Positions 4,125 to 34,891 of a stretch of DNA of 64,000 nucleotides are shown piece after piece (positions within the stretch are counted from its first letter, which is position 1; every line of letters begins with the position of its first letter). Made by a program: the position numbers and the translations under genes. Where the stretch lies: positions 713,834 to 777,833 of the forward strand of contig JASEIU010000001.1 of the NCBI GenBank assembly GCA_030017715.1, written 5' to 3'. The notes beneath the pieces were generated by a model. That model had not been told where the DNA came from. It worked only from the letters and a program-made list of their open reading frames with translations, and ran no database searches. The stretch comes from Candidatus Saccharicenans sp. (lineage in GTDB: Bacteria > Acidobacteriota > Aminicenantia > Aminicenantales > Saccharicenantaceae).

Positions 4125-5105
4125 TTAAGGGTATTTCAGTTTGCCCTGGCGGTTTTTTTCCTCCAGCACCCGGAGCATGTCGGCCGTCATCGCGGCCAGG
4201 TCATAATCGGGCTTCCAGCCCCATTCTTCCCGGGCTGCCCGGTCGTCGATGGATTCGGGCCAGCTGTCGGCAATGGCCTGGCGGAAATCAGGCCGGTAAT
4301 CCACTTCAAAGTCCGGCAGGTGCTTTTTAATTTCAGTCGCCAGTTCGGCGGCCGAAAAGGACATGGCGGTTACGTTGAAGTTGGAATGGTGTTTCAGCCG
4401 GGAAAAATCTGCGCCCATCAGGTCGATTATGGACTTCAGACAGTCCGGCATGTACATCATCGGCAGCCTGGTCTCCGGCCTGAGGAAACAGGTATATCGG
4501 CGGTTGACGACGGCTTCATAAAAAATGGCCACGGCGTAGTCGGTGGTCCCGCCGCCGGGCAAGGTCTCGTTGCTGATGATGCCGGGAAAGCGGCAGCCCC
4601 GGACGTCCAGGCTGTACTTCTTAACGTAATAATCGCAGAGATGTTCACCGGCCACCTTGGTCACGCCGTAAATGGTGGTGGGGCTGAGAATGGTGTCCTG
4701 GGGAGTGTTGACCCGGGGCGTGGCCGGGCCGAAGACGGCAATGGAACTGGGGCAGAAAACCTGTCCGACTCCGAGCTCCCGGGAAGCTTCCAGAATGTTA
4801 TAAAGGCCGTTGATGTTTACATCCCAGGCCTTCTGGGGGAATTTTTCCCCGGTGGCCGAGAGGATGGCCGCCAGGTGGTAGATAACCTTGACCCGATATT
4901 TCTGAATCAGTCGGCTGATTTCCAGGCGGCTGGTCACGTCCAGCCTGTCAAAAGGTCCTGAATTTTCCAGGACCGGAGAGGGCCGGGCAACGTCGGTGGC
5001 TATTACTTTTTCTTCTCCATAGAGCTTCCTCAGGGCCGGCACCAGTTCGGAACCAATCTGGCCGGAAGCGCCGGTGACCAGTATAGTCTCTGTCTCAGGC
5101 GTCAT
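4125..5105 (-). CDS. NAD-dependent epimerase-family L-threonine 3-dehydrogenase (SDR type)
   Basis: 326 aa extended short-chain dehydrogenase. Seen: TGASGQIG nucleotide-binding loop at 11-18, PSS at 119-121, YGVTK with catalytic Tyr146 and Lys150, then PGIIS and the GGGTTDYAV...LPMMYMPD stretch characteristic of SDR-type threonine dehydrogenases, which oxidise L-threonine to 2-amino-3-ketobutyrate with NAD+. UDP-hexose epimerases share the fold but not that last motif. A 2-amino-3-ketobutyrate CoA ligase is not adjacent; the glycine product could feed the cleavage system at 57-61 kb. Start ATG at 5105 has GAGGAG at short spacing. The ammonia-lyase gene is transcribed divergently. Confidence 0.82.
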   Translation of the reverse strand: MTPETETILVTGASGQIGSELVPALRKLYGEEKVIATDVARPSPVLENSGPFDRLDVTSRLEISRLIQKYRVKVIYHLAAILSATGEKFPQKAWDVNINGLYNILEASRELGVGQVFCPSSIAVFGPATPRVNTPQDTILSPTTIYGVTKVAGEHLCDYYVKKYSLDVRGCRFPGIISNETLPGGGTTDYAVAIFYEAVVNRRYTCFLRPETRLPMMYMPDCLKSIIDLMGADFSRLKHHSNFNVTAMSFSAAELATEIKKHLPDFEVDYRPDFRQAIADSWPESIDDRAAREEWGWKPDYDLAAMTADMLRVLEEKNRQGKLKYP

Positions 5106-20244: not shown

Positions 20245-20298
20245 TTGACAAGGCCTTTTTTCGGGATTATTTTATAGGTGGTGAACAAAATGGTTAAC
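20245..20298 (+). promoter_or_regulatory. lexA promoter and possible autoregulatory operator
   Basis: Perfect TTGACA at 20245-20250 with TTATTT at 20268-20273, spacer 17. Immediately downstream, GTGAAC at 20281-20286 and GTTAAC at 20293-20298 form an imperfect inverted pair overlapping the lexA start region. LexA repressors usually bind their own promoter, so this is a candidate operator, but it matches neither the Bacillus nor the E. coli consensus exactly. Confidence 0.4.
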
Positions 20299-20904
20299 AG
20301 AATGAAAAGGACTCTGACCGGAAGGCAGAAGGAAGTTCTAGAGAGAATCCGGGAATTTATCCTGGAACGCGGCTATGCTCCCACAGTCCGGGAAATCGGT
20401 CAGCTGGTCGGCCTTAACAACCCTTCGGCGGTTTTCAAGCATCTGCTGAGCCTGGAAAAGAAGGGCTACCTCAGGCGCGAGGGCGGAGAAATTCGCCTGG
20501 CCGGGATGCCCGAAGCGGTCAGCGCCGTCCGCCTTCCTCTGGTCGGTCTGGTTCCGGCCGGGACCCCGCGGGAAATGTTTGACACGCTGGGCGAGACGGT
20601 GGAGGTCCCCTCCTGGTTTTCCGGACGGAAGAGCGGCAACCTTTTCTGTCTCAGAGTTACCGGAAAGAGCATGATCGACGCTTACATAGATGACGGCGAC
20701 CTGGTGGTCATCGAAAGGACTGATACTGCCAGCTCGGGCCAGATGGTGGTGGCGCTTCTGGAAGATGGGTCGGTGACCCTGAAGCGCCTGCGCCGGGAAC
20801 GCGACCGGGTGCTGCTCGTCCCGGAGAATCCGGCCTTCAAGCCGATTGAGGTTCGGGAGGCCAGAATCATCGGTCGGGTAGTCGGCGTCATCCGAAAATA
20901 TTGA
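20290..20904 (+). CDS. lexA: LexA repressor (SOS regulator, S24 family)
   Basis: 205 aa. N-terminal winged helix-turn-helix at about 8-70 (RQKEVLERIREFILERGYAP, then PTVREIGQLVGLNNPSAV). The cleavage site VPAG is at 88-91 (Ala90-Gly91), the catalytic Ser127 lies in GKSM, and Lys165 in TLKRL completes the Ser-Lys dyad, so RecA-stimulated self-cleavage should be intact. Possible starts are GTG 20278, ATG 20290 and ATG 20302; 20290 is chosen because AGGTGG lies eight bases upstream. dinB and dnaE2 follow on the same strand, as in lexA-linked mutagenesis cassettes of many bacteria, implying that this copy governs damage-inducible translesion synthesis. Confidence 0.93.
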   Translation: MVNRMKRTLTGRQKEVLERIREFILERGYAPTVREIGQLVGLNNPSAVFKHLLSLEKKGYLRREGGEIRLAGMPEAVSAVRLPLVGLVPAGTPREMFDTLGETVEVPSWFSGRKSGNLFCLRVTGKSMIDAYIDDGDLVVIERTDTASSGQMVVALLEDGSVTLKRLRRERDRVLLVPENPAFKPIEVREARIIGRVVGVIRKY

Positions 20905-20906
20905 TT

Positions 20907-21016
20907 TTGACGATCGGCGGACATGAGCCGGGGCTTACTGTGGTGGAGCCGATCGTCGGGGGTTCCAAGGGGGTATGACCCCTTGGTCGCAGGGCGTGGG
21001 TTTGATGCCCCGCCCG
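20907..21016. repeat. Dispersed structured repeat, copy 1 (lexA-dinB intergenic)
   Basis: A 110-bp sequence closely matching 34613-34721. It opens with GACGATCGGC and carries its inverse complement GCCGATCGTC about 30 bp later, forming one hairpin; the second hairpin is CCAAGGGG / CCCCTTGG around 20976-20997. The block ends in GATGCCCCGCCCG. Immediately downstream in this copy only, a further hairpin lies at 21046-21080. It occupies nearly all the space between lexA and dinB. Conserved hairpins in two unlinked places suggest a REP/MITE-like element or a structured RNA. Confidence 0.85.
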
Positions 21017-21045
21017 AGAAGGGGAGGCAGGGAGCGAAGCGAACG

Positions 21046-21080
21046 TTGGAAGGGGGAACGCGAAGCGGTTCCCCCTCCAA
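21046..21080. repeat. Inverted repeat with GCGAAGC apex between lexA and dinB
   Basis: Arms TTGGAAGGGGGAAC (21046-21059) and GGTTCCCCCTCCAA (21067-21080) pair over about 13 bp with one bulge. The apex is GCGAAGC (21060-21066), a heptamer known to form an exceptionally stable mini-hairpin; the same heptamer also occurs at 21034-21040. There is no T-run, so it is not a standard terminator. It could limit read-through from lexA into dinB or be part of the repeat element. Confidence 0.7.
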
Positions 21081-21108
21081 GTTGGCTCTGATTGTCAGGA
21101 AACAGAAC

Positions 21109-22365
21109 ATGCGTAAGTCGGAGGAAAATTTTCCCGTTTTCAGGAAAAGGCGATATGTAGTCCACGTCGACCTGGATGCCTTTTTTGCCTCGGTTGAAGT
21201 GCTGCTCAACCCGGAGCTTAAAGGAAAACCGCTGGTGGTCGGCGGACTGCCGCACGAGCGCGGGGTGGCTTCCACCTGTTCCTATGAGGCGCGGAAATAC
21301 GGAGTTCATTCCGGGATGCCACTGCGGCAGTGCTATAAACTCTGCCCCCGGGCTGTCTTCGTCCGCGGCAATTACCATCTCTACCAGGCCTTTTCCGAAA
21401 AGTTTTTCCGCCTCCTGCACGAATACACTCCGGATGTGGAAGAAGCTTCGCTCGATGAAGCCTACTTAGAATTTACCCGCTGCCGGCATCTGTATTCTTC
21501 TTTCAGTGAGGTGGCTAAAGAAATAAAGTGCCGGGTGGAGAAGGAGCTGGGACTGGGCGTTTCGGTCGGAGCGGCATCCAACAAGATCTTAGCCAAGTTA
21601 GCCACGAAGAAAGCCAAGCCCGGCGGGTTTTTTGAACTTCAGCCAGGGGAGGAGGAAGAATTTCTGCGGGAACTCGACATCTCGGAAATTCCGGGTATCG
21701 GACCGAAGGCCCAGGTGATGCTGCGACTGCTCAACGTCCATAAGATTGCCGACCTCTGGAAGCTTCAGCTCGGGACGCTGCGCTCGCTCTTTGGAGTCAT
21801 GGGCGATGAGCTTTACCTTCTGTCGCGGGGGATGGACTGCCGGTCGCTGGCAGTTGAGGGGAAACCGAAATCCTTCTCCCGCGAGGCCACTTTTCTCCAG
21901 GACATCTGGGACCGGGACCTGCTGCTGGCGCACCTGGCCTACCTCTGCGACCGGCTGGCCCTGACCCTGCGGCAGGAAAAATATTATGCCCGGGTGATAG
22001 AAGTCAAAGCCCGCTATTCGGATTTTAAGACAGTGAGCAGGCGCCGGGTGCTGTCTCTTCCAGTCCAGGAAACCAACCGTATCTACCGCCTGGCTGAAGA
22101 GCTTTTCCTGGAGCTGTGGGAAGGGTCGCGCCTGGCTCTGCGGCTGGTCGGGGTTAAGGGAAGCGAGCTGGTGGAAGCCCGGCATCTTTCGCTCTTTGAA
22201 ATCTATTCCGAGCGGGAAGAGCGGCTGTCGCAGGCTCTCGACCGGGTGCGGGGAAAATACGGTTTTAATGCCCTGCTGACGGTGCGGGAGAAGATGCTGA
22301 GCGGGGTCTATGATGAAGACCGGGGCCGCGGCTTTATCCTGAAGACGGCTTCCTTAACCAGGTGA
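21109..22365 (+). CDS. dinB: Y-family DNA polymerase (DinB/Pol IV type)
   Basis: 418 aa from the ATG at 21109 (AGGA upstream). The frame stays open back to 20923, but that extension is the translated repeat and is rejected. Catalytic carboxylates are present: Asp21 in DLDAFFASVE and Asp116-Glu117 in SLDEAYLEF, so it should be an active error-prone polymerase rather than an ImuB-type pseudo-polymerase. Helix-hairpin-helix thumb segment (ISEIPGIGPKAQVMLRLLN) and little-finger region follow. Between lexA and dnaE2 it forms a lexA-dinB-dnaE2 set for damage tolerance. No beta-clamp motif was confidently located at the C-terminus. Confidence 0.92.
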   Translation: MRKSEENFPVFRKRRYVVHVDLDAFFASVEVLLNPELKGKPLVVGGLPHERGVASTCSYEARKYGVHSGMPLRQCYKLCPRAVFVRGNYHLYQAFSEKFFRLLHEYTPDVEEASLDEAYLEFTRCRHLYSSFSEVAKEIKCRVEKELGLGVSVGAASNKILAKLATKKAKPGGFFELQPGEEEEFLRELDISEIPGIGPKAQVMLRLLNVHKIADLWKLQLGTLRSLFGVMGDELYLLSRGMDCRSLAVEGKPKSFSREATFLQDIWDRDLLLAHLAYLCDRLALTLRQEKYYARVIEVKARYSDFKTVSRRRVLSLPVQETNRIYRLAEELFLELWEGSRLALRLVGVKGSELVEARHLSLFEIYSEREERLSQALDRVRGKYGFNALLTVREKMLSGVYDEDRGRGFILKTASLTR

Positions 22366-22588
22366 GGAAGCGGGAGGAACAACCTGAAGTAAAAAAAGAA
22401 ATCGAAAGATAAGGGAAAAAGAACGAAGTCGATGAACAGATGAGGTGACATGAGAATACATTACAACGAAGGAGAACGCAGGATTGAGACGCTGAGAATT
22501 AAGAACGGGAAAAAAGGGAAAGATAAAAGTAGCAGGTAAAAAAGGAAGGCAGACAAGAAGATAGATGGGTGGTGAACTGGAGTCGAAC
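22366..22588. other. Purine-rich spacer between dinB and dnaE2
   Basis: The coding strand is strikingly rich in A and G (for example the runs around 22390-22445 and 22500-22560), with few pyrimidines. No credible gene is present on either strand, although imuA would be expected about here in a canonical cassette. The dnaE2 ribosome site TGGAG lies at its end. It may be a decayed coding sequence or a long unstructured leader. Confidence 0.5.
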
Positions 22589-25429
22589 ATGTTTGTGCCG
22601 TTAAGAGTTCATTCGGTTTTCAGCCGTGGTCAGGGGAGTATCACTCTGGAAGAATTCGCCCGGTTTGCTGCCCAGAACCGGCTTCCGGCGGCGGCTCTTA
22701 CCGACGCTGGCACTTTCTACGGCTGGGGAAAGTGGAAAGCCCTGGCTGAAGGGCAGAATTTCAAGCCCATTTTTGGCTGCGAGCTGGAGCTCGATTTTCC
22801 GGCCAAGGGCAGCCGTTATGTTTTTCTCGTGAGGGAGAAGAAAGGGTATCACCGGTTGCTCGAGATTTTTAACCGCCGGCAGTTTCTGGAGCCTGAAGGA
22901 CTGATCACAATTTTTATTCTCCCGCCCGAGCCGGCCGTCTCCGGAAGCGCTCTTGAGGAGCAGGCGGGAGAGGTGCGGAAAATTCAGGAAGCGGTCCCGG
23001 AAGATTTTTACTTAGGCTGCCGGCTGGAAAATTTTCAGCCGGCGCTCTGGCTTTCTGAGAGGACGGCGGTTCCGCTTCTCTGGATGGGTCCCCTTAAATA
23101 TCTCACCAGCCCGCAGCGTCTGGTTCTTCTGCGCTCGGTCGAGCAGCAAATTCCCTATCCGCCCGAATGGAAGAAAATTGCGACGGCGGTCGGAACCTTC
23201 GGTCCGGAGCAGGAACGGGCGGCTCTAAAAAAATACGGCCAGCGGATGAAGGAAATTTTCCGCCGGCACCTGGAAGTGGCGGAGAAAATAGATTTTTCCT
23301 TCGAAAATGTCGTCCCCCCGCTTCCGGAAGACCTTTTCCCCTTCACCCTGCGCCAGGTGATCGGCGAGAAACTGGCCAGCCTCAGAAAGCTGAGCTGGAA
23401 GGAGAGGGAACGGGCGGTGAGGGAGCTTCAGGCGGTGGAAGAGAGCGGGTTTGCTCCTTATTTTCTGGTGGTGCACGACGTGGTGGAGTTTGCCCGAAGC
23501 CGCGGTATTTACCACAATCTGCGGGGTTCGGGCGCCTCTTCCTATCTTGCCTATCTTCTGGGTATTTCCCGTCTGAATCCGGTGAAGTATGACCTGTATT
23601 TCGAGCGATTTCTCAACCGCGGCCGGCCCGAACCGCCAGACTTCGACCTGGATTTTGAATCCGCCCGGCGGGATGAAGTTCTGGAGTATGTGCTCAAACG
23701 CTACAGTTCGGGAAAAACCGGGGCGGCTTACGTCTGCAGCCTGAAGAATTACCGGGCGCGCTCGGCTCTCTACGAAACCGCCAGGGCTTTCGGTGTCCCG
23801 CCGGAAGAAGCCCGGGCCATGAGCAAAAAGGTGCCGATGTTTGCCGACCCGGCTTTCCTTCAGGAGATGCCGCCGGCTGCCGGCTGCCTGGAAATCTGGA
23901 AGTTAGCGGCCGGGCTTTCGGGAGTGTTTGCTGAAATTTCGCTCCACGTCGGCGGGGTGATCCTCACTCCGGCGCCGGTTGAGCGTTTCCTGCCGCTGGA
24001 AGAATCGGCCAAAGGATTGCTCATGTGCCATTACGACCGGGACACGGTGGAGGAGCTCCGGCTGATCAAGCTTGACCTTCTTTCCACCCGCGGACTCACG
24101 GCGATTTCTGAAACCAGAAAAGCCCTGGGCCTCCGGGCGCTACCGCCGGACGACCCGAAAACCTACGCCCTCCTGAGAGAAGCCCGGACGATCGGCTGCT
24201 TCCAGGTGGAAAGCCCGGCCATGATGAACCTGCTGCGCCGGATGAAACCGGAAAAATTTGAGGATTTGATCCATGCCTTGGCACTTATTCGTCCGGGACC
24301 GACCGAGAGCGGGATGAAGGAAGCCTATCTCCGGAGCCGGGAAGGACGACCGGTTCCGGAAGACCCGCTCCTCTCCCGGGTGCTCCCGGAAACCGGCGGT
24401 CTGATGTTTTACGAGGAGCAGGTGATGCAGCTGGCCGAAAGGGTGGCCGGTTTTCCGCCGGAAGAGGGAGAGTGCCTCCGTCGCCAGCTTAAAAAACGGC
24501 GGGTGGAAGGGTCTCTGCGCCGGAAATTTTTCGAGCAGGCCCGGAGCCGGGGTTATTCTGAAGCCGAGGTTAAAAGCCTCTGGGAGAAGATGGAGAAATT
24601 TTCCTCCTACTCTTTCAACCGGGCTCACAGCGCCTCCTACGCGCTGATGGCTTACGAGGCGGTTTATCTCAAAGCCCATTATCCGCTGGTTTACTTGACG
24701 GCCGTGATGAATGCCGCCGGCGGCTATTACCAGCTTCCGGAGTATGTGGAGGAAGCCAGACGACTGGGGATAACCATCCTCGGTCCTGATGTCAACCGCA
24801 GCGGTTACAGATTTCAGGTGGAAGGGAAAGCCATCAGGGTGGGCCTTGGCCTGATCAAAAACCTCACCTTGAAAACCATCGAGAAAATAATAGATGAGCG
24901 GGAAAAGGACGGGTCCTATCTCTCGATGGAGGATTTCCTCGGCCGGGTCAGGCCCGGGCAGAGCGACCTGCTGGCGCTGATCCAGGCCGGGGCCCTCGAC
25001 TCGCTCGAACCCAACCGCAGCCAGCAGGTGCTGTCTTATTTTCATGGAGTGTCCGAGGTAAAAGTGGCGGATATGGCTGATGAGGAGAAGAGAAAGCTTC
25101 AGCTGGAAAGGCTCGGCTTCCTGCCGGCGGGCGACCCGCTGGAGTTTCTCGACGGGCGGAGGCCGTCGCTGCGAATAGCGCAGCTTAAAGACCTGGGCGG
25201 GCAGACGGTCGAGCTGGCGGCAAGGATTGTGGATGCCCGGGAGATAAGGACGGCTAAGGGAGTGACCTATTTCTATCTCTTTGAAGACGAGACCGGACTG
25301 GTCGAAGGGGTGGGGCAGAGGAAGGCTTTAGCCTTTGGCACACCGCCGATGTGCTTTCTCCGGGCTGAAGTGCGCCTTCAGGGAAATCTGCCCCGGCTTA
25401 TAAACTGTGCCTTCCTGCGCACCTTCTGA
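22589..25429 (+). CDS. dnaE2: Error-prone DNA polymerase III alpha subunit (DnaE2 type)
   Basis: 946 aa C-family replicative-type polymerase, shorter than the usual 1000-1100. Start ATG at 22589 is chosen over 22565 because the PHP domain begins MFVPLRVHS. The PHP metal motif is degenerate (RVHS for HxHS). Palm carboxylates are kept: PDFDLDF at about 349-355 and the third Asp in IKLDLLSTRG near 496. Helix-hairpin-helix and OB-fold (about 860-946) close the protein. With lexA and dinB upstream it should act in translesion synthesis. Its last 102 codons are duplicated at 28651-28961, and a low-GC segment begins right after its stop. Confidence 0.92.
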   Translation: MFVPLRVHSVFSRGQGSITLEEFARFAAQNRLPAAALTDAGTFYGWGKWKALAEGQNFKPIFGCELELDFPAKGSRYVFLVREKKGYHRLLEIFNRRQFLEPEGLITIFILPPEPAVSGSALEEQAGEVRKIQEAVPEDFYLGCRLENFQPALWLSERTAVPLLWMGPLKYLTSPQRLVLLRSVEQQIPYPPEWKKIATAVGTFGPEQERAALKKYGQRMKEIFRRHLEVAEKIDFSFENVVPPLPEDLFPFTLRQVIGEKLASLRKLSWKERERAVRELQAVEESGFAPYFLVVHDVVEFARSRGIYHNLRGSGASSYLAYLLGISRLNPVKYDLYFERFLNRGRPEPPDFDLDFESARRDEVLEYVLKRYSSGKTGAAYVCSLKNYRARSALYETARAFGVPPEEARAMSKKVPMFADPAFLQEMPPAAGCLEIWKLAAGLSGVFAEISLHVGGVILTPAPVERFLPLEESAKGLLMCHYDRDTVEELRLIKLDLLSTRGLTAISETRKALGLRALPPDDPKTYALLREARTIGCFQVESPAMMNLLRRMKPEKFEDLIHALALIRPGPTESGMKEAYLRSREGRPVPEDPLLSRVLPETGGLMFYEEQVMQLAERVAGFPPEEGECLRRQLKKRRVEGSLRRKFFEQARSRGYSEAEVKSLWEKMEKFSSYSFNRAHSASYALMAYEAVYLKAHYPLVYLTAVMNAAGGYYQLPEYVEEARRLGITILGPDVNRSGYRFQVEGKAIRVGLGLIKNLTLKTIEKIIDEREKDGSYLSMEDFLGRVRPGQSDLLALIQAGALDSLEPNRSQQVLSYFHGVSEVKVADMADEEKRKLQLERLGFLPAGDPLEFLDGRRPSLRIAQLKDLGGQTVELAARIVDAREIRTAKGVTYFYLFEDETGLVEGVGQRKALAFGTPPMCFLRAEVRLQGNLPRLINCAFLRTF

Positions 25430-25431
25430 CC
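25121..25431 (+). repeat. 311-bp direct repeat, copy A (3' end of dnaE2)
   Basis: Matches 28651-28961 without gaps; I count seven substitutions, about 98% identity. The repeat begins in frame at codon 845 of dnaE2 and ends two bases after the TGA. Both sides diverge abruptly. Copy A completes the intact gene. Confidence 0.95.
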
Positions 25432-25791
25432 CGGCTCCAAATTTACAGGCAAATTTATTCTTCGTAATTTTCTGGCTCAAGGTGCCACCCTGCGGCCAAA
25501 TGCTCCCTTCCCCATGGATATCATATGTTAACCCGAAAGAAATAAATACTTGACAAGCTGTTTTTTTTTTTTTTTTTTTTTACATTTATCTTAGCAAAAA
25601 AGGGTTCGAAAAAATGAGAGTAAGAGGACAGTATTCTCCTTTTGGTTATTTCTGCTTTGCTTGGGATTTCCGGAGTTTTTTAGGGCAAAACATCTATTGA
25701 GGATTTATTATTAAAAGGGGGTGATTAAATTGCTTGCTCAAATCAAAATCCAGTCAGTTGATTTCTCTCTAAATTAAAAAAGGAGGCAAAA
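25430..25791 (+). other. AT-rich upstream region of the subtilase gene, with a 21-T tract
   Basis: No gene longer than a few codons is credible. TTGACA lies at 25550-25555, then a run of 21 T (25561-25581), then TACATT at 25581-25586; the spacing is about 25 bp, too long for a normal promoter. A 19-codon frame (GTG 25721 to TAA 25777) preceded by an A/G-rich stretch could be a leader peptide but has no other support. Base composition changes to AT-rich from here. Confidence 0.5.
25561..25581 (+). repeat. 21-base poly-T homopolymer
   Basis: Twenty-one consecutive T residues, preceded by G and followed by AC. The longest homopolymer in the window, located between a perfect TTGACA and a TACATT. 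Such tracts are prone to slipped-strand length change; read-length artefact is also possible. Confidence 0.9.
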
Positions 25792-27459
25792 ATGAAAAAG
25801 ACATTAATGGTCGTGGGACTGGGCCTGGGACTCTTTATTTGCCTGTTTTTGCTAAATGCTGCTCCCAGCCCTCAGGAAACTATATACCAGGAATATGTGC
25901 CAGGAGAGGTACTGGTAAAATTCAAACCAATGGCCGGGAAACAGGCGGCTATTGCTGTTCTTGATGTTATTAAACCAAGGGTAGTTAATTACCTGGGACA
26001 GGAGATCGCCTTTACGGACTGGGATCCTGAGGTCACGCTTAAAAGTTCCTTTCTGGGAGACCCGCATCTGGTCCATCTCAGAGTGCCGGAAACCATTGGC
26101 ACGGAAAAAGCTATCTCCATGCTAAAAAACAACCCGAATGTAGAATACGTGGAGCCTAACTATATATACTGCTTCTACGAAACGATTCCAAACGACCCAT
26201 ATATATACCTTCAATGGGGGCTAAACAATACAGGTCAGTCAGGGGGAACGGTTGATTCGGATATTGATGCTCCAGAAGCCTGGGACATTTTCACCGGCAG
26301 TCAGGATGTGGTTGTCGCGGTAATTGATTCTGGTATCGATTACAGTCACGTTGATCTGGCTCAAAACATCTGGATAAATCCGGGAGAAATCCCGAATAAT
26401 GGTATCGATGATGATGGGAATGGATACGTTGATGATTGTCGCGGCTGGAATTTTTATTCCAATAACAATAATCCCATGGATTACTTGGGTCACGGAACAC
26501 ATGTAGCTGGAATAATTGGGGCCGTAGGAAATAACGGTACTGGAGTAACAGGAGTCTGCTGGAATGTTAAATTAATGGCGCTGAGAATAGTACCAGACGC
26601 GGCTTCAGCAATCAAGGCAATCGATTATGCCATAAGCATGGAGGCCAAGATAATGAATGCTAGCTGGGGTAGTCCATCTTACTCCAGCTCTCTCCTATCT
26701 GCTATCGGCAGAGCCCAGGCTGCGGGCGCTCTGTTTATTGCGGCAGCAGGGAATAGTCCCCCTCCCGGGAAGAATAACGATTTAACTCCATACTATCCTT
26801 CCAGTTATGACCTTGACAACATTATAGCTGTGTTGTCCACTGACCATAATGATAATAAATCGGGCTTCTCGCACTATGGCATCTATTCTGTAGACCTGAG
26901 CGCACCGGGAGGAAGCGACACCATCCAAAGCTCATATAATATTTATAGTACCTTTAGGGAAAATAAGTATCGGTATCTTTCCGGAACTTCTATGGCTACA
27001 CCCTTTGTTACCGGGCTGGCTGCTCTTCTTTTAGGTCAAAGGCCCGAAATCGATTGGTGGCAGAGAAAGACTATAATCCTGAAAAGCGTTGACGTTAAAT
27101 CTCAACTTCAAGGCAAAGTCCGGACTTCAGGCAGGCTCAATGCTTATAATTCTCTTATTTGTTCAACACCGGTTCTACCCGCGGCGCCATCGAATCTCCG
27201 TGGCGTGGCCTTTAAGAACGGCGATTTTTATGACCTAGAATTAACCTGGACAGACAATTCAAATAATGAAAGCGGCTTCGCTATATACTTAAAATCAGGA
27301 AATGTTTTTTTCCAAATCGACCAGGTAGCTCAAGATGTCACCACCTACTGGCTGGTTGAAGTTCCGGCAGGATACTATTACTTTTATATCCGTGCTTTCA
27401 ACACCGACGGAGAGTCTTTAAAAACCCCTCAGATAGCAGTAAAAGCCTTTTATTATTAA
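25792..27459 (+). CDS. Secreted subtilisin-like serine protease (S8 family) with C-terminal Fn3-like domain
   Basis: 555 aa. Signal peptide at residues 1-24, then a fervidolysin-like propeptide (YVPGEVLVKFKP to EYVEPNY, about 35-125). Catalytic Asp179 (VIDSGID), His234 (GHGTHVAG), Asn321 oxyanion residue and Ser400 (SGTSMATP) are all present, so it should be active. A calcium-loop-like insert NGIDDDGNGYVDD lies at 203-215. Residues 465-550 (APSNLRGVAF, LTWTDNSNNESGF) look like a fibronectin type III domain. Strong AAGGAGG before the ATG. Lower GC than dnaE2, and followed by a barrel-like gene; the pair may be co-inherited. Confidence 0.92.
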   Translation: MKKTLMVVGLGLGLFICLFLLNAAPSPQETIYQEYVPGEVLVKFKPMAGKQAAIAVLDVIKPRVVNYLGQEIAFTDWDPEVTLKSSFLGDPHLVHLRVPETIGTEKAISMLKNNPNVEYVEPNYIYCFYETIPNDPYIYLQWGLNNTGQSGGTVDSDIDAPEAWDIFTGSQDVVVAVIDSGIDYSHVDLAQNIWINPGEIPNNGIDDDGNGYVDDCRGWNFYSNNNNPMDYLGHGTHVAGIIGAVGNNGTGVTGVCWNVKLMALRIVPDAASAIKAIDYAISMEAKIMNASWGSPSYSSSLLSAIGRAQAAGALFIAAAGNSPPPGKNNDLTPYYPSSYDLDNIIAVLSTDHNDNKSGFSHYGIYSVDLSAPGGSDTIQSSYNIYSTFRENKYRYLSGTSMATPFVTGLAALLLGQRPEIDWWQRKTIILKSVDVKSQLQGKVRTSGRLNAYNSLICSTPVLPAAPSNLRGVAFKNGDFYDLELTWTDNSNNESGFAIYLKSGNVFFQIDQVAQDVTTYWLVEVPAGYYYFYIRAFNTDGESLKTPQIAVKAFYY

Positions 27460-27552
27460 ACTCGGCTGATGTTATATGATATTATTAGAGAGAAGTATGA
27501 AAGTCGGTGATTTTATAGGCGAAATTTCTATAAAAAACAGGAGGGACAGCCT

Positions 27553-28506
27553 GTGAAACGTTGGTGGATGCGTCTTTTTGCCTTTATCGTAATCCTGTTC
27601 TTATCTTGGTCTTTGGCCGGAGCAAATGACAAGAACTCACGCGGCCATTCCTTTAACCTTGTTATCAGAGAAGGTTTAGGGTCAATCAGCGTTGGAGACA
27701 TGAACACGACCCTAAAGTCTATTAACTCCATCTTCGACGGGGTGAGAAGTTATCATCCTGAAAGGTGCGTCGGGGAGATTACAGAGATTCCTGCTAATTA
27801 TGTTGATTGGGAAGTAGAGCTCCAGTGGGCCATTGGCTCAGGTTTCATTGTCGGAGTGGCCATCTCCGGGCCCCTCCGTTTCCACGACAGAAGTTTTCTG
27901 ACTTATACTATTGTGGATTATGCGGGGACCCAAACTGAAAACAGAACTTACGACTCTAAAATTAATGTATCTATGCCTATCAAGCTCAATGTTTACCGTT
28001 CATTCTCAATTCATCCGCAGCTCAATCTCTCTATTAACGGAGGGCTTGGTTATTACCGGGCCCGATTAAGGCAGAGCTTTACCAATGAGTTACGTCTGCC
28101 GCTTGACTCGCATGATATCGAAATTAATGATTTTGATGTCTCTGGCAGGAGAATAGGTGTCCATTGTGGAGGGGGATTGGAATACAAATTCAATGATAGA
28201 TTCTTCTTGCTGGTTGAGGGGCAATTTAATTTTTCTAGAGTAAAGCATTTTTCGGGTATGGGCAGTATGAGCTATCAGGTATTTGACGAGCAAGGAAATT
28301 TTGATGGCTCATATGACGAATCATTTGAAGGTATCCTTTATCACTACATCGGAGAGGATTTTTCCGTGGGGATACCACGCGAAAAACTCGTTGTCAGCGA
28401 ATCTCCACCCATTCTTGGCTTTGATTTCCCAAGTGACGTGAGAGAGGCTTTTCTTGATCTTCGTGGGTTTGCTCTGAGGTTCGGACTCAAGATAAGATTG
28501 TTTTAA
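27553..28506 (+). CDS. Outer-membrane beta-barrel-like protein of unknown function
   Basis: 317 aa starting at GTG 27553 with AGGAGGG upstream. Signal peptide (residues 5-24, ending AGANDKN). The rest is made of alternating amphipathic strands (WEVELQWAIGSGFIVGVAISG, KLNVYRSFSIHPQLNLSING, GGGLEYKFNDRFFLLVEGQFNF) and ends FGLKIRLF with a terminal Phe, typical for outer-membrane barrels. No specific family recognised. Lies 93 bp after the subtilase in the same low-GC segment, probably one transcript; secretion of one and barrel for the other would fit a surface pair, but this is inference. Confidence 0.72.
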   Translation: MKRWWMRLFAFIVILFLSWSLAGANDKNSRGHSFNLVIREGLGSISVGDMNTTLKSINSIFDGVRSYHPERCVGEITEIPANYVDWEVELQWAIGSGFIVGVAISGPLRFHDRSFLTYTIVDYAGTQTENRTYDSKINVSMPIKLNVYRSFSIHPQLNLSINGGLGYYRARLRQSFTNELRLPLDSHDIEINDFDVSGRRIGVHCGGGLEYKFNDRFFLLVEGQFNFSRVKHFSGMGSMSYQVFDEQGNFDGSYDESFEGILYHYIGEDFSVGIPREKLVVSESPPILGFDFPSDVREAFLDLRGFALRFGLKIRLF

Positions 28507-28650
28507 GCCTTTATTATTCGAGCACGAGTTAATCAATAAGGAGTGAGCTATCTCTCCAGATTCAGGAATTTGATATTGTAGAAGATATTTATCTTTAGAA
28601 CTATCGTTATAAGCGGGATGACGCGACATTAAGTAGAATTTATACGTTTT
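28507..28650. other. Gap between the barrel gene and dnaE2 fragment
   Basis: 144 bp without recognised gene, AT-rich, ending abruptly at the copy B boundary (CGTTTT then CTGCCGG). It contains no homology to the sequence upstream of copy A. Confidence 0.5.
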
Positions 28651-28961
28651 CTGCCGGCGGGCGACCCGCTGGAGTTTCTCGACGGGCGGAGGCCGTCGCT
28701 GCGAATAGCGCAGCTTAAAGACCTGGGCGGGCAGGCGGTCGAGCTGGCGGCAAGGATTGTGGATGCCCGGGAGATAAGGACGGCTAAGGGAGTGACCTAT
28801 TTCTATCTCTTTGAAGACGAGACCGGACTGGTCGAAGGGGTGGGGCAGAGGAAGGCTTTAGCCTTAGGCACACCGCCGGTGTGTTTTATCAGGGCGGAAG
28901 TGCGCCTTCAGGGAAATCTGCCCCGGCTTATAAACTGTGCCTTCCTGCGCACCTTCTGACC
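28651..28961 (+). pseudogene. Truncated second copy of the dnaE2 3' end (direct repeat copy B)
   Basis: Repeats 25121-25431 gap-free with seven substitutions: three silent and four conservative at the protein level (Thr to Ala, Phe to Leu, Met to Val, Leu to Ile), so it looks like it diverged while still under coding constraint. It covers only the last 102 codons (the OB-fold region) and has no start codon context or upstream polymerase domains, so it is a gene fragment. The frame stays open to the TGA at 28957-28959. A strong promoter for the next gene starts ten bases beyond. Confidence 0.9.
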
Positions 28962-28970
28962 GCCAGAGCC

Positions 28971-29000
28971 TTGACTTTTTTTTATAGTTCTTTTTACAAT
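28971..29000 (+). promoter_or_regulatory. Strong candidate promoter for the propeller gene
   Basis: TTGACT at 28971-28976, TACAAT at 28995-29000, spacer 18 bp. The predicted start near 29007 leaves a leader of about 135 bases before ATG 29142. It begins only about ten bases after the dnaE2 fragment, suggesting that copy B plus this promoter may preserve the original junction. Confidence 0.6.
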
Positions 29001-29141: not shown

Positions 29142-30275
29142 ATGAAGAAAGTTTCAAAAATTATGCTGATATTATTGCCTGCATTACTGATTATCACCCG
29201 GGTTGAAGCCCAGAAAATCAGGACTGTTGACGGCGTTACCGTCGTCTCAAACGGAAAAAAACCAATCCAGGTTAAGGAACAACCTGCCAGTTTTTCCTTG
29301 CAGGAAGAACTGATGATCGGCGGAGGAGAAAAACCGGAAGAATCTTTTTCTCAGGATATTTCATTCGCAGTCGATGACGAGGGAACCATTTTTGCTCTTG
29401 ACTTTAAGGAGCAGAAGATAAAGGTCTTCGACAGGACAGGAAAATATGTTCGCTCCATCGGACGGTCGGGCCATGGCCCGGGAGAATGGGGTGCGGCCAC
29501 GGGCATTCTGCTGGGGCCCGACAGTATGCTTCTGGTGGTTGATCTGTACCACCGGAGACTGGCTGTCTTCAGGAAAACAGGTGAGTTCGTCAGAAACGTA
29601 TCGTTTTCTGACAAACCGACTTGGATGAACATCATGATGGACGATCAGGGCAATATTCTGGTCATGGAGATGGGAATTGCTCCGGATATGACCAGAAGGT
29701 CTTATGAAATTAAAAAATACGATCCTGAGTTCAAACCACTTTTTACACTTGATAAGATAGAACTTCCTGTGCCAATTCCGGGTTCGGGCAAAAAAGTTAA
29801 TTTGTTTGAAACGTTTCCAGTATATCAATTCGGTCCGGAAGGACGAATTTATTACGGTCGAAATCTGACCTATGAAATTAAAATGTTCAGCCCCGAGGGT
29901 AAACATCTCAGAACAATTTCCAGGGATTATGACCGGATAAAAATTACCCAGCAAGATATTGATGAGATTATGGAACGAGTTTCAGGTGCCATTTCTGGAA
30001 TTAATGTAAAAGACATGTACTCTTTTCCGGACTTTTTCCCGCCAGTCCAGAGTTTTATTCTTGATGAACAGGGCAGAATTTATGTGCGCACCTATATGAA
30101 GGGTAAAAATAAGGGAGAGCACTGGATTGACGTTTTTGACCCCGAAGGACGGTTTATAGCTCAGTTCATCAGCCGGGCTGACCTCAGACTGATCAGGAAT
30201 GGTTTGGCCTATGGAATTGAAGTTCTGGAAGATGGATTCCAGGTTATTAAGAGATATAAATTATTGATGAAATAA
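29142..30275 (+). CDS. Secreted six-bladed beta-propeller (NHL-like) protein
   Basis: 377 aa. Signal peptide (residues 5-23, ending RVEAQ). The body shows NHL/6-bladed repeats: FAVDDEGTIFALDFKEQKIKVFD, GKYVRSIGRSGHGPGEW, LLGPDSMLLVVDLYHRRLAVF, and the final blade YVRTYMKGK...DVFDPEGRFIAQF. The GRSGHGPGEW segment is frequent in secreted propeller proteins of Bacteroidetes and Aminicenantes-like genomes; function unknown, perhaps ligand or polysaccharide binding. AAGGA precedes the ATG at moderate spacing. AT-rich like the preceding segment. No neighbour points to a pathway. Confidence 0.78.
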   Translation: MKKVSKIMLILLPALLIITRVEAQKIRTVDGVTVVSNGKKPIQVKEQPASFSLQEELMIGGGEKPEESFSQDISFAVDDEGTIFALDFKEQKIKVFDRTGKYVRSIGRSGHGPGEWGAATGILLGPDSMLLVVDLYHRRLAVFRKTGEFVRNVSFSDKPTWMNIMMDDQGNILVMEMGIAPDMTRRSYEIKKYDPEFKPLFTLDKIELPVPIPGSGKKVNLFETFPVYQFGPEGRIYYGRNLTYEIKMFSPEGKHLRTISRDYDRIKITQQDIDEIMERVSGAISGINVKDMYSFPDFFPPVQSFILDEQGRIYVRTYMKGKNKGEHWIDVFDPEGRFIAQFISRADLRLIRNGLAYGIEVLEDGFQVIKRYKLLMK

Positions 30276-30720
30276 TCGTCCTCAACACAAAAGAAAACGG
30301 TTTTTCTGATTTAGATTCAGTCTGGAATATGTTTCCGCGACAGTATTCATCTGTCTGGCTTGATTAATCTGGCCTCAGGTTCTGGCAAGCAGGTCGGCTG
30401 CAGATCAGCCAATTGTCCCAGGACATAGATCAGGCTGAAAATCGTAGCCAGGACCGCAGACCATAAACCTGCTGCCCTGGTTGGGGGTGACAATTTTTCT
30501 AACATGAAGAATCTTCTTTAGCTTTAATTTATCAGGGCAAGGTCAGACAATAAGCGAACCCTCTTCAATCTGAAGGATTAGAAATCAACTGAAAGATATT
30601 AGCTGTTGCTCTTCTTCAATAACAAAAAGGTATCTCACCGATAACTAAATGTCAATTCGGCGATGCTGATTGATAAAGGCGGGCATGTTCTTATGGCCGC
30701 GGCAGGAAATAATCCAGGGC
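30276..30720. other. Intergenic region with a small minus-strand membrane ORF
   Basis: 445 bp AT-rich gap between two tail-to-tail genes. Apart from the 52-codon frame at 30347-30505 nothing is recognised: no tRNA, repeat or terminator with a clear T-run was found. Confidence 0.5.
30347..30505 (-). CDS. Possible small membrane protein or gene remnant
   Basis: 52 aa: a short basic/proline N-terminus (MLEKLSPPTRAAG), one hydrophobic helix of about 20 residues (LWSAVLATIFSLIYVLGQLA) and a polar tail ending in a stop. It resembles the N-terminal membrane segment of a larger sensor protein, so it may be a remnant. The ribosome site is weak (AAGAAG). Confidence 0.35.
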   Translation of the reverse strand: MLEKLSPPTRAAGLWSAVLATIFSLIYVLGQLADLQPTCLPEPEARLIKPDR

Positions 30721-31968
30721 TCAGATCAGGACTTCCCCGGGGATCGGGCGCAGGTTGAAGTTTGAGGCCATGCTGCGGCAGTAGGCTCCGGCCATCAGCA
30801 CCGCCAGGATATCCCCGCTGCGCGGCGCCGGCATCGACCGTTCCGAGCCGAAAACATCTCCGGTTTCGCAGAGATGTCCGGCCACCGTCAGCCTGACCTT
30901 TTTGCCGCCGTCGACCCGGCTGGCATTAACGATTTCATGGTAGGCTTCCTCGTAAATCGCCGGCCGCGGGACGGTGTTATAAGTTCCGGCATTGACGCAG
31001 GCAAACAGATTCCCGTAGCTCTTTTTCAGATATTCAACCCTGACCAGAAGGACCCCGGCGTTTGCCAGAAGGTATTTCCCGGGCTCCGCCACTATGGCTT
31101 TAAGCTCCAATCCTGAACTTTCAACTTTATCAAGGATGTAGGCGGCATACTCGGCTAACGGGAACCGTCGCTGGTCTTTTCTGTATATCGGTCCCAGGCC
31201 CCCGCCAAAGTCGAGAAATTCCAATCTGAAGCCGGCCTGTTTGAGCTCCTTAGCTATTTTAATCATTCTGTCGACCGCCTTCACGGCTACCGGGAAATCT
31301 TCTTCGGTCCAGCCCGAGCCGAGATGCTGATGGAGTCCAACCGGGAGAAAGCCCAGGCGCTTGAGTTTTCTGAAGGACGGAAGAACCTGACTCTCTTCCA
31401 CTCCGAATTTTATCGGGGTGCCGTCCGGGCTCCGGCTGCCGGCGGTCACTGTTTTGCTGCAAAAACCACGCCCGAGTCCCGGGTTCCAGCGAACTGAGAT
31501 GCGCACGGGCTTTCTTCTCCTGAGCTTTTTGCGGGCAGCCGCCAGAAGGTCGATCTGCTCAACCGCGTCAATGTTTACCGTGACTTCCGGATGCTTCAAC
31601 ACCCTCTCAAAATCTTCCCGGCTGATCGAGGTGCCGGTGAACATGATTTTATTTTCCGGGAAGCCGGCTTTATGGGCAGCTTCCACTTCGGATGGAGAAA
31701 CAGCATCAATCCAGGTTCCGGCCCTGAGCAGGATTTTGAGTATCCCGGGATGCGGGTTGGCTTTCATGGCGTAGGCGATTCTTGTTTCCAGCCCTGGCTT
31801 CTCCATAGAAAAAGCTTCTCTGAGTTTCTGCAGGTTCCTTAGAATCTGTTTCCGGCTGTAAACATAGAGCGGCGTTCCGTATGTTTTCGCTATTTCATCT
31901 GCCGGCTGCTCTTCTAGATAAAGCCTGTTGTTTTTGACCTTCAAAAATTCGTTCTCCCACCAGTTCAT
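30721..31968 (-). CDS. lysA: Diaminopimelate decarboxylase-family enzyme (LysA, fold III PLP)
   Basis: 415 aa, the normal length. Converts meso-diaminopimelate to lysine and CO2. PLP lysine Lys69 in YAMKANP, HQHLGSG, the GGGLG phosphate-binding segment near 255, EPGKYL, and CETGD near 365 with the catalytic Cys that acts across the dimer interface. Other fold-III decarboxylases (ornithine/carboxynorspermidine) share these motifs, so the assignment is strong for the family and good for LysA. The ATG at 31968 has AAGGA nine bases upstream. The DUF72 gene lies 46 bp upstream on the same strand. Confidence 0.88.
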   Translation of the reverse strand: MNWWENEFLKVKNNRLYLEEQPADEIAKTYGTPLYVYSRKQILRNLQKLREAFSMEKPGLETRIAYAMKANPHPGILKILLRAGTWIDAVSPSEVEAAHKAGFPENKIMFTGTSISREDFERVLKHPEVTVNIDAVEQIDLLAAARKKLRRRKPVRISVRWNPGLGRGFCSKTVTAGSRSPDGTPIKFGVEESQVLPSFRKLKRLGFLPVGLHQHLGSGWTEEDFPVAVKAVDRMIKIAKELKQAGFRLEFLDFGGGLGPIYRKDQRRFPLAEYAAYILDKVESSGLELKAIVAEPGKYLLANAGVLLVRVEYLKKSYGNLFACVNAGTYNTVPRPAIYEEAYHEIVNASRVDGGKKVRLTVAGHLCETGDVFGSERSMPAPRSGDILAVLMAGAYCRSMASNFNLRPIPGEVLI

Positions 31969-34551: not shown

Positions 34552-34891
34552 GCTCCCATCAGCCAGGCCCGCCTCCTAATCTTTTAGCTCGGCGGTCGTT
34601 TTGTTTTGGGCCTTGACGATCGGCGGATATGTGCCGCGGTTTGCCGCGGGGAGCCGATCGTCGGGGGTTCCAAGGGGGTATGACCCCCTGGTCGCAGGGT
34701 GTGGGTTTGATGCCCCGCCCGTTAACATGAATTCTATTCAGCCGACCAGAAATAGATAAATAGATAATAAAGAACTTCTATGGCTGGTGTCCGGGGCATC
34801 AAGGAGCAATAGTTTTTGCTAATCTTGTTGCAGCTCTCCGGTGGATGTCAATCAGACCCTCTAACCGTTGGCCCTTTGATTAAGGGTGGAA
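34552..34891. other. Intergenic region holding repeat copy 2
   Basis: 340 bp between serS and the convergent PAP2 gene. Bases 34613-34721 are the repeat; the remainder shows no gene or terminator. Confidence 0.6.
34613..34721. repeat. Dispersed structured repeat, copy 2 (after serS)
   Basis: 109 bp, matching 20907-21016 at the ends almost exactly and diverging in the loop of the first hairpin (copy 1 GAGCCGGGGC, copy 2 GTGCCGCGGTTTGCCGCGG, itself self-complementary). Second hairpin is CCAAGGGGG / CCCCCTGG. The match ends at GCCCCGCCCG, after which the two loci differ, defining the element boundary. Hairpin pairing is largely kept despite base differences. Confidence 0.85.

Follow-up and report, generated by a model that had tools for sequence, protein, structure and literature searches.

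We analysed a stretch of 64,000 nucleotides from Candidatus Saccharicenans sp. (the window: GenBank assembly GCA_030017715.1, contig JASEIU010000001.1, positions 713,834 to 777,833 of the forward strand), in which the 3' end of dnaE2, a DNA polymerase III alpha gene, is present in two copies with genes for a subtilase and a barrel-like protein between them. An initial annotation read this arrangement as an insertion of foreign DNA that had carried in its own version of the gene end. The repeat is real; the age first given to it is probably wrong, and what it reflects appears to be an old partial duplication in an array of surface-protein modules, kept fresh by recombination. The explanation that we favour, and hold to be probably right, is an old tandem array of modules in a hotspot between dnaE2 and lysA, in which homologous recombination would homogenise the truncated dnaE2 ends (tails) and add or remove modules, with a complete dnaE2 left in place.

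Alignment confirmed the repeat as first described: a gap-free core of 311 bp with seven substitutions (25205/28735, 25336/28866, 25349/28879, 25354/28884, 25358/28888, 25361/28891 and 25366/28896). Translation likewise bore out that three of these are silent and four replace amino acids (T>A, F>L, M>V, L>I), and both copies end just past the stop codon, 2 nt beyond the TGA. The full match is slightly longer, with positions 25118-25431 duplicated at 28648-28961, 3530 bp downstream, over 314 ungapped positions with 8 differences (∼97.4-97.5% identity). Six of the seven core differences are packed into 31 nt, which random placement achieves in 0.00015 of trials. In the source genome (2.9 Mb, 92.6% complete) the two copies are the sole matches at E <= 0.001 (E 1.9e-162 and 1.3e-151). 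We refer to this genome as G000 and to relatives by other G numbers, and call the native tail copy A and the extra one copy B. The features concerned are as follows.

22565-25429, + strand: intact DNA polymerase III alpha gene (PF07733, PF17657, PF14579, PF02811; found in relatives), which we take to be of the dnaE2 subtype.
25118-25431, + strand: copy A, the native dnaE2 3' end and repeat partner, by sequence match.
25792-27459, + strand: sub1, a secreted subtilase (PF00082, E 2.8e-60; PF22148), with an orthologue in G003 and the C-terminal part of one in G011.
27553-28506, + strand: bar1, an outer-membrane barrel-like protein and paralogue of the other hotspot barrels (PF13505 at 23.9 bits, under the Pfam cut-off of 28.7).
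28590-28647, + strand: probable decayed outer edge of a dnaE2 tail copy, judged from a weak in-register likeness ahead of the point where the repeat becomes visible.
28648-28961, + strand: copy B, a truncated dnaE2 3' end, apparently homogenised with copy A and without a good start codon in this genome.

The subtilase that had been predicted between the copies is thus established by its PF00082 match, while the match of the predicted barrel falls below the Pfam cut-off.

The junction between bar1 and the tail is older than the similarity of the two copies would suggest. It is shared by G000, G011 and G003, where the tail starts at the same place and ∼140 bp of the untranslated region (UTR) can be aligned; the junction between bar2 and a tail is likewise shared by G014 and G011. 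Among G000, G011 and G003 the cargo DNA is 85-88% identical in sub1 (compared with G011 over 353 nt only) and 81-83% in bar1, and the flanking genes are 73% (lysA), 76-81% (duf72), 78-80% (serS), 79-85% (dnaE2 outside the repeat) and 84-86% (imuB) identical. Because these three genomes have the junction and UTR in common, and the cargo has diverged like its flanks, the unit with its truncated tail probably predates the species split; a duplication older than that split is one feature of concerted evolution. There is no clear sign of recent cargo transfer, and a recent arrival of the unit in each species is unlikely. The same evidence speaks against a recent single insertion of foreign DNA. What survives of the earlier interpretation includes the arrangement itself, in which the cargo has an intact dnaE2 on one side and a truncated extra tail on the other.

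A second feature of concerted evolution, paralogues closer within a genome than to their orthologues, is seen in the window tails. We gathered 26 tail sequences and used 18 rows in an identity matrix and tree, leaving out those too short or decayed (G011_1, G003_B, G003_C12, G018_B, G001_2, G005_C65, G005_C68 and G003_C29_26k). The window tails are 97.4% identical to each other, and neither exceeds 82.2% to the tail of any other species. In four-way site patterns with G011, all 42 of 42 informative sites pair the copies of G000 with each other, and a tree forcing the bar1 tails of the window and G011 (WIN_B and G011_3) together is rejected (p-AU 2.7e-58). The close pair G014 and G011 follows the same trend more weakly (sites 10:2:1). 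In G014 the first 118 nt past the junction are identical in A and B, whereas 16 of the first 110 nt of the orthologous tail in G011 are different from B. The 97% identity of A and B therefore probably reflects later homogenisation, not a recent date. The clustering of six differences in G000 is what patchy conversion predicts.

Upstream of the visible repeat edge, the last 60 nt before the tail show in-register likeness to the own or nearest dnaE2 (p 0.015 in G000, 0.001 in G011, and 0 of 3000 shuffles in G003), which nhmmer detects weakly in G003 alone (E 0.12). The weak likeness in the last 45-60 nt of the bar1 UTR fits, modestly, an outer edge lying beyond the reach of conversion. We rejected the whole bar1 UTR as a long dnaE2 relic, as the in-register similarity is confined to these 45-60 nt, and set aside as unsupported a tblastn extension to codon 813 in G003.

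The modules themselves are paralogous. Barrels 1-4 are related at 24-33% identity, the two whole subtilases are 55% identical, and homologous promoter-leaders follow dnaE2 or a tail in G000, G003, G009, G011 and G014, with the first part present in G015. One contig of G003 reads dnaE2, sub2, bar4, tail; a second reads sub1, bar1, tail, UTR, the end of a third subtilase, bar3, lysA. This gives three placeable modules of subtilase and barrel, the third with the subtilase end only, and two tail fragments followed by UTR-like sequence, a layout that a tandem duplication of tail, UTR, leader, subtilase and barrel would produce. The array of G011 comprises bar2, tail 2, the remaining end of sub1, bar1 and tail 3. 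A similar array with sub1 whole would contain both the G000 unit (sub1, bar1, tail) and the G014 unit (bar2, tail), and the G014 tail has on its left the junction of G011 tail 2 and on its right the flank of tail 3. Either unit could have been left behind after a crossover between two tails in an array of this kind.

From these comparisons we infer the tandem-duplication origin, gene conversion and crossing over as the cause, and the direction of the exchanges. The unit would consist of a dnaE2 3' tail, a short UTR, a poly-T promoter, a secreted subtilase and an outer-membrane barrel. It would most likely be the product of a tandem duplication whose breakpoints lay within dnaE2 and directly behind the barrel gene, and with breakpoints so placed every additional unit has its barrel followed by a truncated dnaE2 tail. 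Through the ordinary homologous recombination of the cell, sequence would then pass between the tails and the intact dnaE2, and perhaps also between the tails and dnaE2 of related species. Crossing over between tails would add or remove the intervening cargo while dnaE2 stays complete.

Comparison of relatives places the repeat in a hotspot. Wherever contigs reach, the gene order in the genus is lexA, imuB/dinB, dnaE2, a variable part, lysA, DUF72 and serS. The variable part ranges from ∼330 bp in G002 up to several kb, and its genes encode subtilases, the four related barrels, propellers, an M64 peptidase, a beta-lactamase-fold protein, a membrane-type protein and others. In the window, the borders and remaining cargo are these.

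20278-20904, + strand: ORF that we take, by recall from its sequence, to be lexA, the first gene of the conserved lexA-imuB/dinB-dnaE2 block on the left side of the hotspot; order conserved in relatives.
20923-22365, + strand: ORF presumed, also by recall and with synteny, to be a Y-family polymerase gene of imuB/dinB type.
29142-30275, + strand: 6-bladed beta-propeller protein (PF17170) with a signal-like start by eye; further hotspot cargo with no dnaE2 tail after it.
30404-30505, − strand: remnant of a membrane-protein-like gene, called DUF228 (34 aa, 79%), which is whole at the same place in G007, G009, G010 and G011.
30721-31968, − strand: lysA-type decarboxylase (PF02784/PF00278, synteny), the conserved right border of the hotspot.

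A dnaE2 tail was matched in 15 of the 19 genomes of the genus Candidatus Saccharicenans that were searched. Five of the 15 have a clear extra tail (G000, G003, G011, G014 and G017, the last on a contig other than that of dnaE2, near lysA), and G018 has a decayed one. An extra tail is probable in G001, from one contig with identical 141-nt ends, and G005 has two tail pieces at contig ends, without overlap. A single tail is found in seven genomes (G002, G004, G007, G009, G010, G012 and G015; the G012 contig ends 964 bp past the gene). Relatives with one tail and little cargo, which the initial annotation had proposed to look for, do exist: lysA follows within ∼330 bp in G002, and G004 has the beta-lactamase-fold gene only. 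Outside the genus we considered 20 loci from 18 genomes; for 14 of these genomes the sequence retrieved covers dnaE2 in full and no less than 5 kb beyond it. A second tail (291 bp, 88%), separated by another gene, is present in one of these, G090, which belongs to another family. Its extra match was already known when G090 was chosen, so the count gives no rate. As G090 has an extra tail of its own, the event happened more than once.

Several loci in these genomes showed further irregularities. Contigs of G085 and G078 overlap by exactly 127 nt in dnaE2 tails, where repeats and strain variation look alike, and were left uncounted, as was a second dnaE2 of G086 split over two contigs, which we ascribed to contamination or a second gene. 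G003 has a lone dnaE2 tail of ∼140 bp (L063 6624-6767), ∼20 kb from dnaE2 and in the opposite orientation, near a propeller-like gene and a frame resembling a truncated transposase, presumably of IS256 type. The 5 kb contig of G001 (L068, identical ends at 1-141 and 4926-5066) carries the dnaE2 tail, a 557-aa protein that has no Pfam match, a BNR-repeat protein and a propeller-like protein; its ends may reflect a circle, a tandem array or an effect of assembler word length. In G005 (L070, L069) the imuB-dnaE2 contig is 99% identical to the proteins of the window and lysA is 88% identical, which may be due to bin contamination or to transfer of the block between species.

The breaks at these repeats raise the question of an assembly chimera. 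Repeats do break assemblies here, and contigs of G011, G005 and G001 end inside dnaE2 tails. The same junction nevertheless appears in metagenome-assembled genomes from separate records (A05DMB19, MAG-75), and the flanks of A and B differ, so that a chimera is hardly credible.

Several observations weigh against the favoured account of an old, recombining array. For G014 and G011, a tree that unites the orthologous tails is not clearly rejected (p-AU 0.067). Crossovers between tails leave the propeller gene downstream of copy B unexplained. In G000, G011 and G014 the last tail has no further subtilase-barrel module behind it, and tandem duplication therefore needs later loss in these genomes; G011 keeps part of sub1 only. 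The cargo is somewhat more alike than lysA and serS, which would allow for some transfer. Both G003 and G011 are spread over more than one contig, and the comparisons from which recombination is read are between species. The differences between tails are about as silent-rich as in working genes: the ratio of silent to replacement changes is 15:5 between A and B of G014 (312 nt) and 15:3 between the tails of G011, where a dead copy drifting alone would be expected to show more replacements. Such ratios call for copies that are often renewed from functional alleles, for selection on the copy, or for a recent import of a functional tail. Finally, a control of 400 kb of the same contig holds several direct repeats of 107-790 bp within 12 kb, as well as one long internally repetitive region (219-230 kb). 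One of four regions inspected is clearly a copy of a gene front: a 359-bp piece of the ORF at 26329-27273, presumably menA, recurs with 94% identity 9.3 kb upstream with other genes between (L133 17072-17430, L134 6374-6732). This repeat is a mirror case of the dnaE2 tail. As the control holds gene-piece repeats too, the phenomenon may not be special to dnaE2.

With three silent and four replacement changes (4:4 with one edge site counted), the window gives no power to judge the claim that copy B evolved within a working gene; the claim holds in G014 and G011 (dN/dS 0.105 and 0.062). These values fit tails refreshed from functional dnaE2 alleles, or the incoming functional tail of the initial annotation. 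They are also what would be seen if copy B were a small functional gene encoding the C-terminal domain of DnaE2 on its own, and open frames of 168 aa in G014 and of 168 and 106 aa in G011 would accommodate one. We regard such a gene as improbable: the window copy lacks a good start codon, and homogenisation alone can account for the constraint. Internal deletions, stops or decay in the copies of G003, G017, G018 and G090 make selection on the tail as a small gene unlikely.

Refreshing may also come from outside the genome. Between G014 and G011, in 300-nt pieces, most tails are 89-92% identical, compared with 94-96% for bar2 and 94-100% for lysA-serS. Parts of imuB and the front of dnaE2 are also at 88-92%, and the end of dnaE2 dips to 87-90% between G014 and the single-tailed G009. 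Tails may thus be refreshed from the dnaE2 of other strains or species via homologous recombination, which comes near the incoming gene end first proposed. A stronger form would be Campbell-type import, in which circles or fragments made up of a dnaE2 tail and cargo arrive from other strains or species and enter by a single homologous crossover in the tail; copy A would then be the incoming end and copy B the displaced native end, much as in the initial annotation with RecA in place of an integrase. Such import would account for the order of full dnaE2, cargo, tail and flank in G014 and G011, whose flank contains the beta-lactamase-fold gene found directly after dnaE2 in G004. The silent-rich differences in G014 and G011 resemble those between two functional alleles, and the tails of this pair are mostly lower in identity than bar2 and lysA-serS. 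The 5 kb contig of G001, with tail and cargo between identical 141-nt ends, would suit an imported circle, although 141 may be the assembler word length. However, the junctions are shared across species and the cargo has diverged like the flanking genes, the left edge of G014 copy B matches its own genome and not the orthologous unit, and the paralogous repeated modules point to duplication. The low identity is not specific to tails, as the parts of imuB, the front of dnaE2 and the single-tailed G009 attest. We therefore consider Campbell-type import possible and unlikely as the main explanation.

Insertion in gene 3' ends is a habit of prophages and islands, for example e14 in icd and elements at tRNA sites. 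A site-specific element of the integrase or phage type that inserts at the 3' end of dnaE2 and supplies a new version of that end would give what is observed here: an insert at a gene 3' end, the 3' end and its reading frame kept whole, and a displaced tail on the far side. The visible left edges of the tails vary (∼codons 756, 851 and 863), and the right edges lie 2 to ∼180 nt past the stop. Because the edges vary there is no fixed crossover core; conversion can nevertheless shift visible edges. The initial annotation saw no integrase, and a Pfam scan of the cargo proteins encoded between the repeats found no integrase domain. Among 16 scanned proteins (including the window cargo and ten from relatives), the only exception was an IS-type rve_3 fragment at a G003 contig edge. 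Plasmid and phage collections gave no near match (by megablast only), and no Rfam families reached the gathering score besides two tRNAs. Neither a recombinase, among the proteins scanned, nor constant edges, two features of an integrase island, are thus found here, apart from the IS-type fragment, and unlike such islands an array can contain several tails of variable length. These differences make a site-specific element very improbable.

Other systems resemble the array as we reconstruct it more closely. In concerted evolution by gene conversion, as of bacterial rRNA operons and others, within-genome copies are closer, in patches, than between-genome orthologues, as in the window tails; papers on the subject include PMC6002687 and PMC8022953. 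The difference is that the partners here are a full working gene and its last 300-600 bp, which stand as a spacer between surface-protein genes. The minimal mobile elements of Neisseria are gene cassettes exchanged by homologous recombination in conserved flanking genes. As in those elements, variable cargo without a recombinase of its own occupies one place, differing among related genomes between the same conserved genes dnaE2 and lysA; the flanks in Neisseria are single, whereas here the tail of a flank is multiplied inside the array. Literature searches, whose results gave the starts of abstracts, returned environmental surveys for Saccharicenans and, in those results, no report of this locus.

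Two promoter-like sites lie next to the tails.

25550-25586, + strand: promoter-like TTGACA, poly-T(21) at 25561-25581, TACATT, with a spacer of 25.
28971-29000, + strand: promoter-like TTGACT-18-TACAAT, for the next gene, as first annotated at 28971.

Sites homologous to the first head modules in relatives, with 11-16 T and spacers of 15-20 where the second hexamer was detected; our script did not detect it at the homologous sites of G009 and G015. The source genome contains three sites of the pattern TTGACA-N2-6-T10, compared with none for the reversed control pattern, and the other two precede, by eye, gene pairs with a propeller-like protein. The poly-T site heading the modules is a possible phase-variable promoter, predicted to be off in the window. 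Between this site and sub1, a short frame from TTG to TAA (25730-25777) stands behind a ribosome-binding-like AAAGGGGGTG, with a similar start in the G014 and G011 leaders, and is a possible leader peptide candidate.

Base composition is less informative. The drop in GC on which the foreign origin had partly been based is real, from 0.54-0.63 in dnaE2 to 0.37-0.47 between the repeats, in windows. Low GC extends from ∼25.5 to 30.7 kb, through the gene after copy B and ∼2 kb past that copy, and 19.5-20.25 kb is equally low (0.44). GC does not, therefore, single out the segment between the repeats, and we dropped it as evidence for a recent foreign insertion. A 72-nt dispersed repeat is found at 20945-21016 and 34650-34721 and in nine genomic places in all (82-100% identity); one of these overlaps the region where the polymerase ORF at 20923 starts.

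For genome analysis the locus carries a warning, as assemblies break at such tails. It also offers a concrete site in an uncultured phylum at which the turnover of cassettes without a dedicated recombinase can be measured. As a tentative proposal, open to considerable doubt, the dnaE2 tail may act as a recombinase-free docking site and spacer: surface cassettes carrying the end of a polymerase gene could be stacked, swapped and dropped, inside one genome or from one species to another, with the SOS polymerase left intact. Together with the poly-T promoters this would give two layers of variation in secreted proteases and barrels. The locus shows how a recent-looking insertion can be an ancient duplication kept young by recombination, and how the tail of a conserved gene can turn into the spacer of a changing surface-gene array while the gene itself is not lost.

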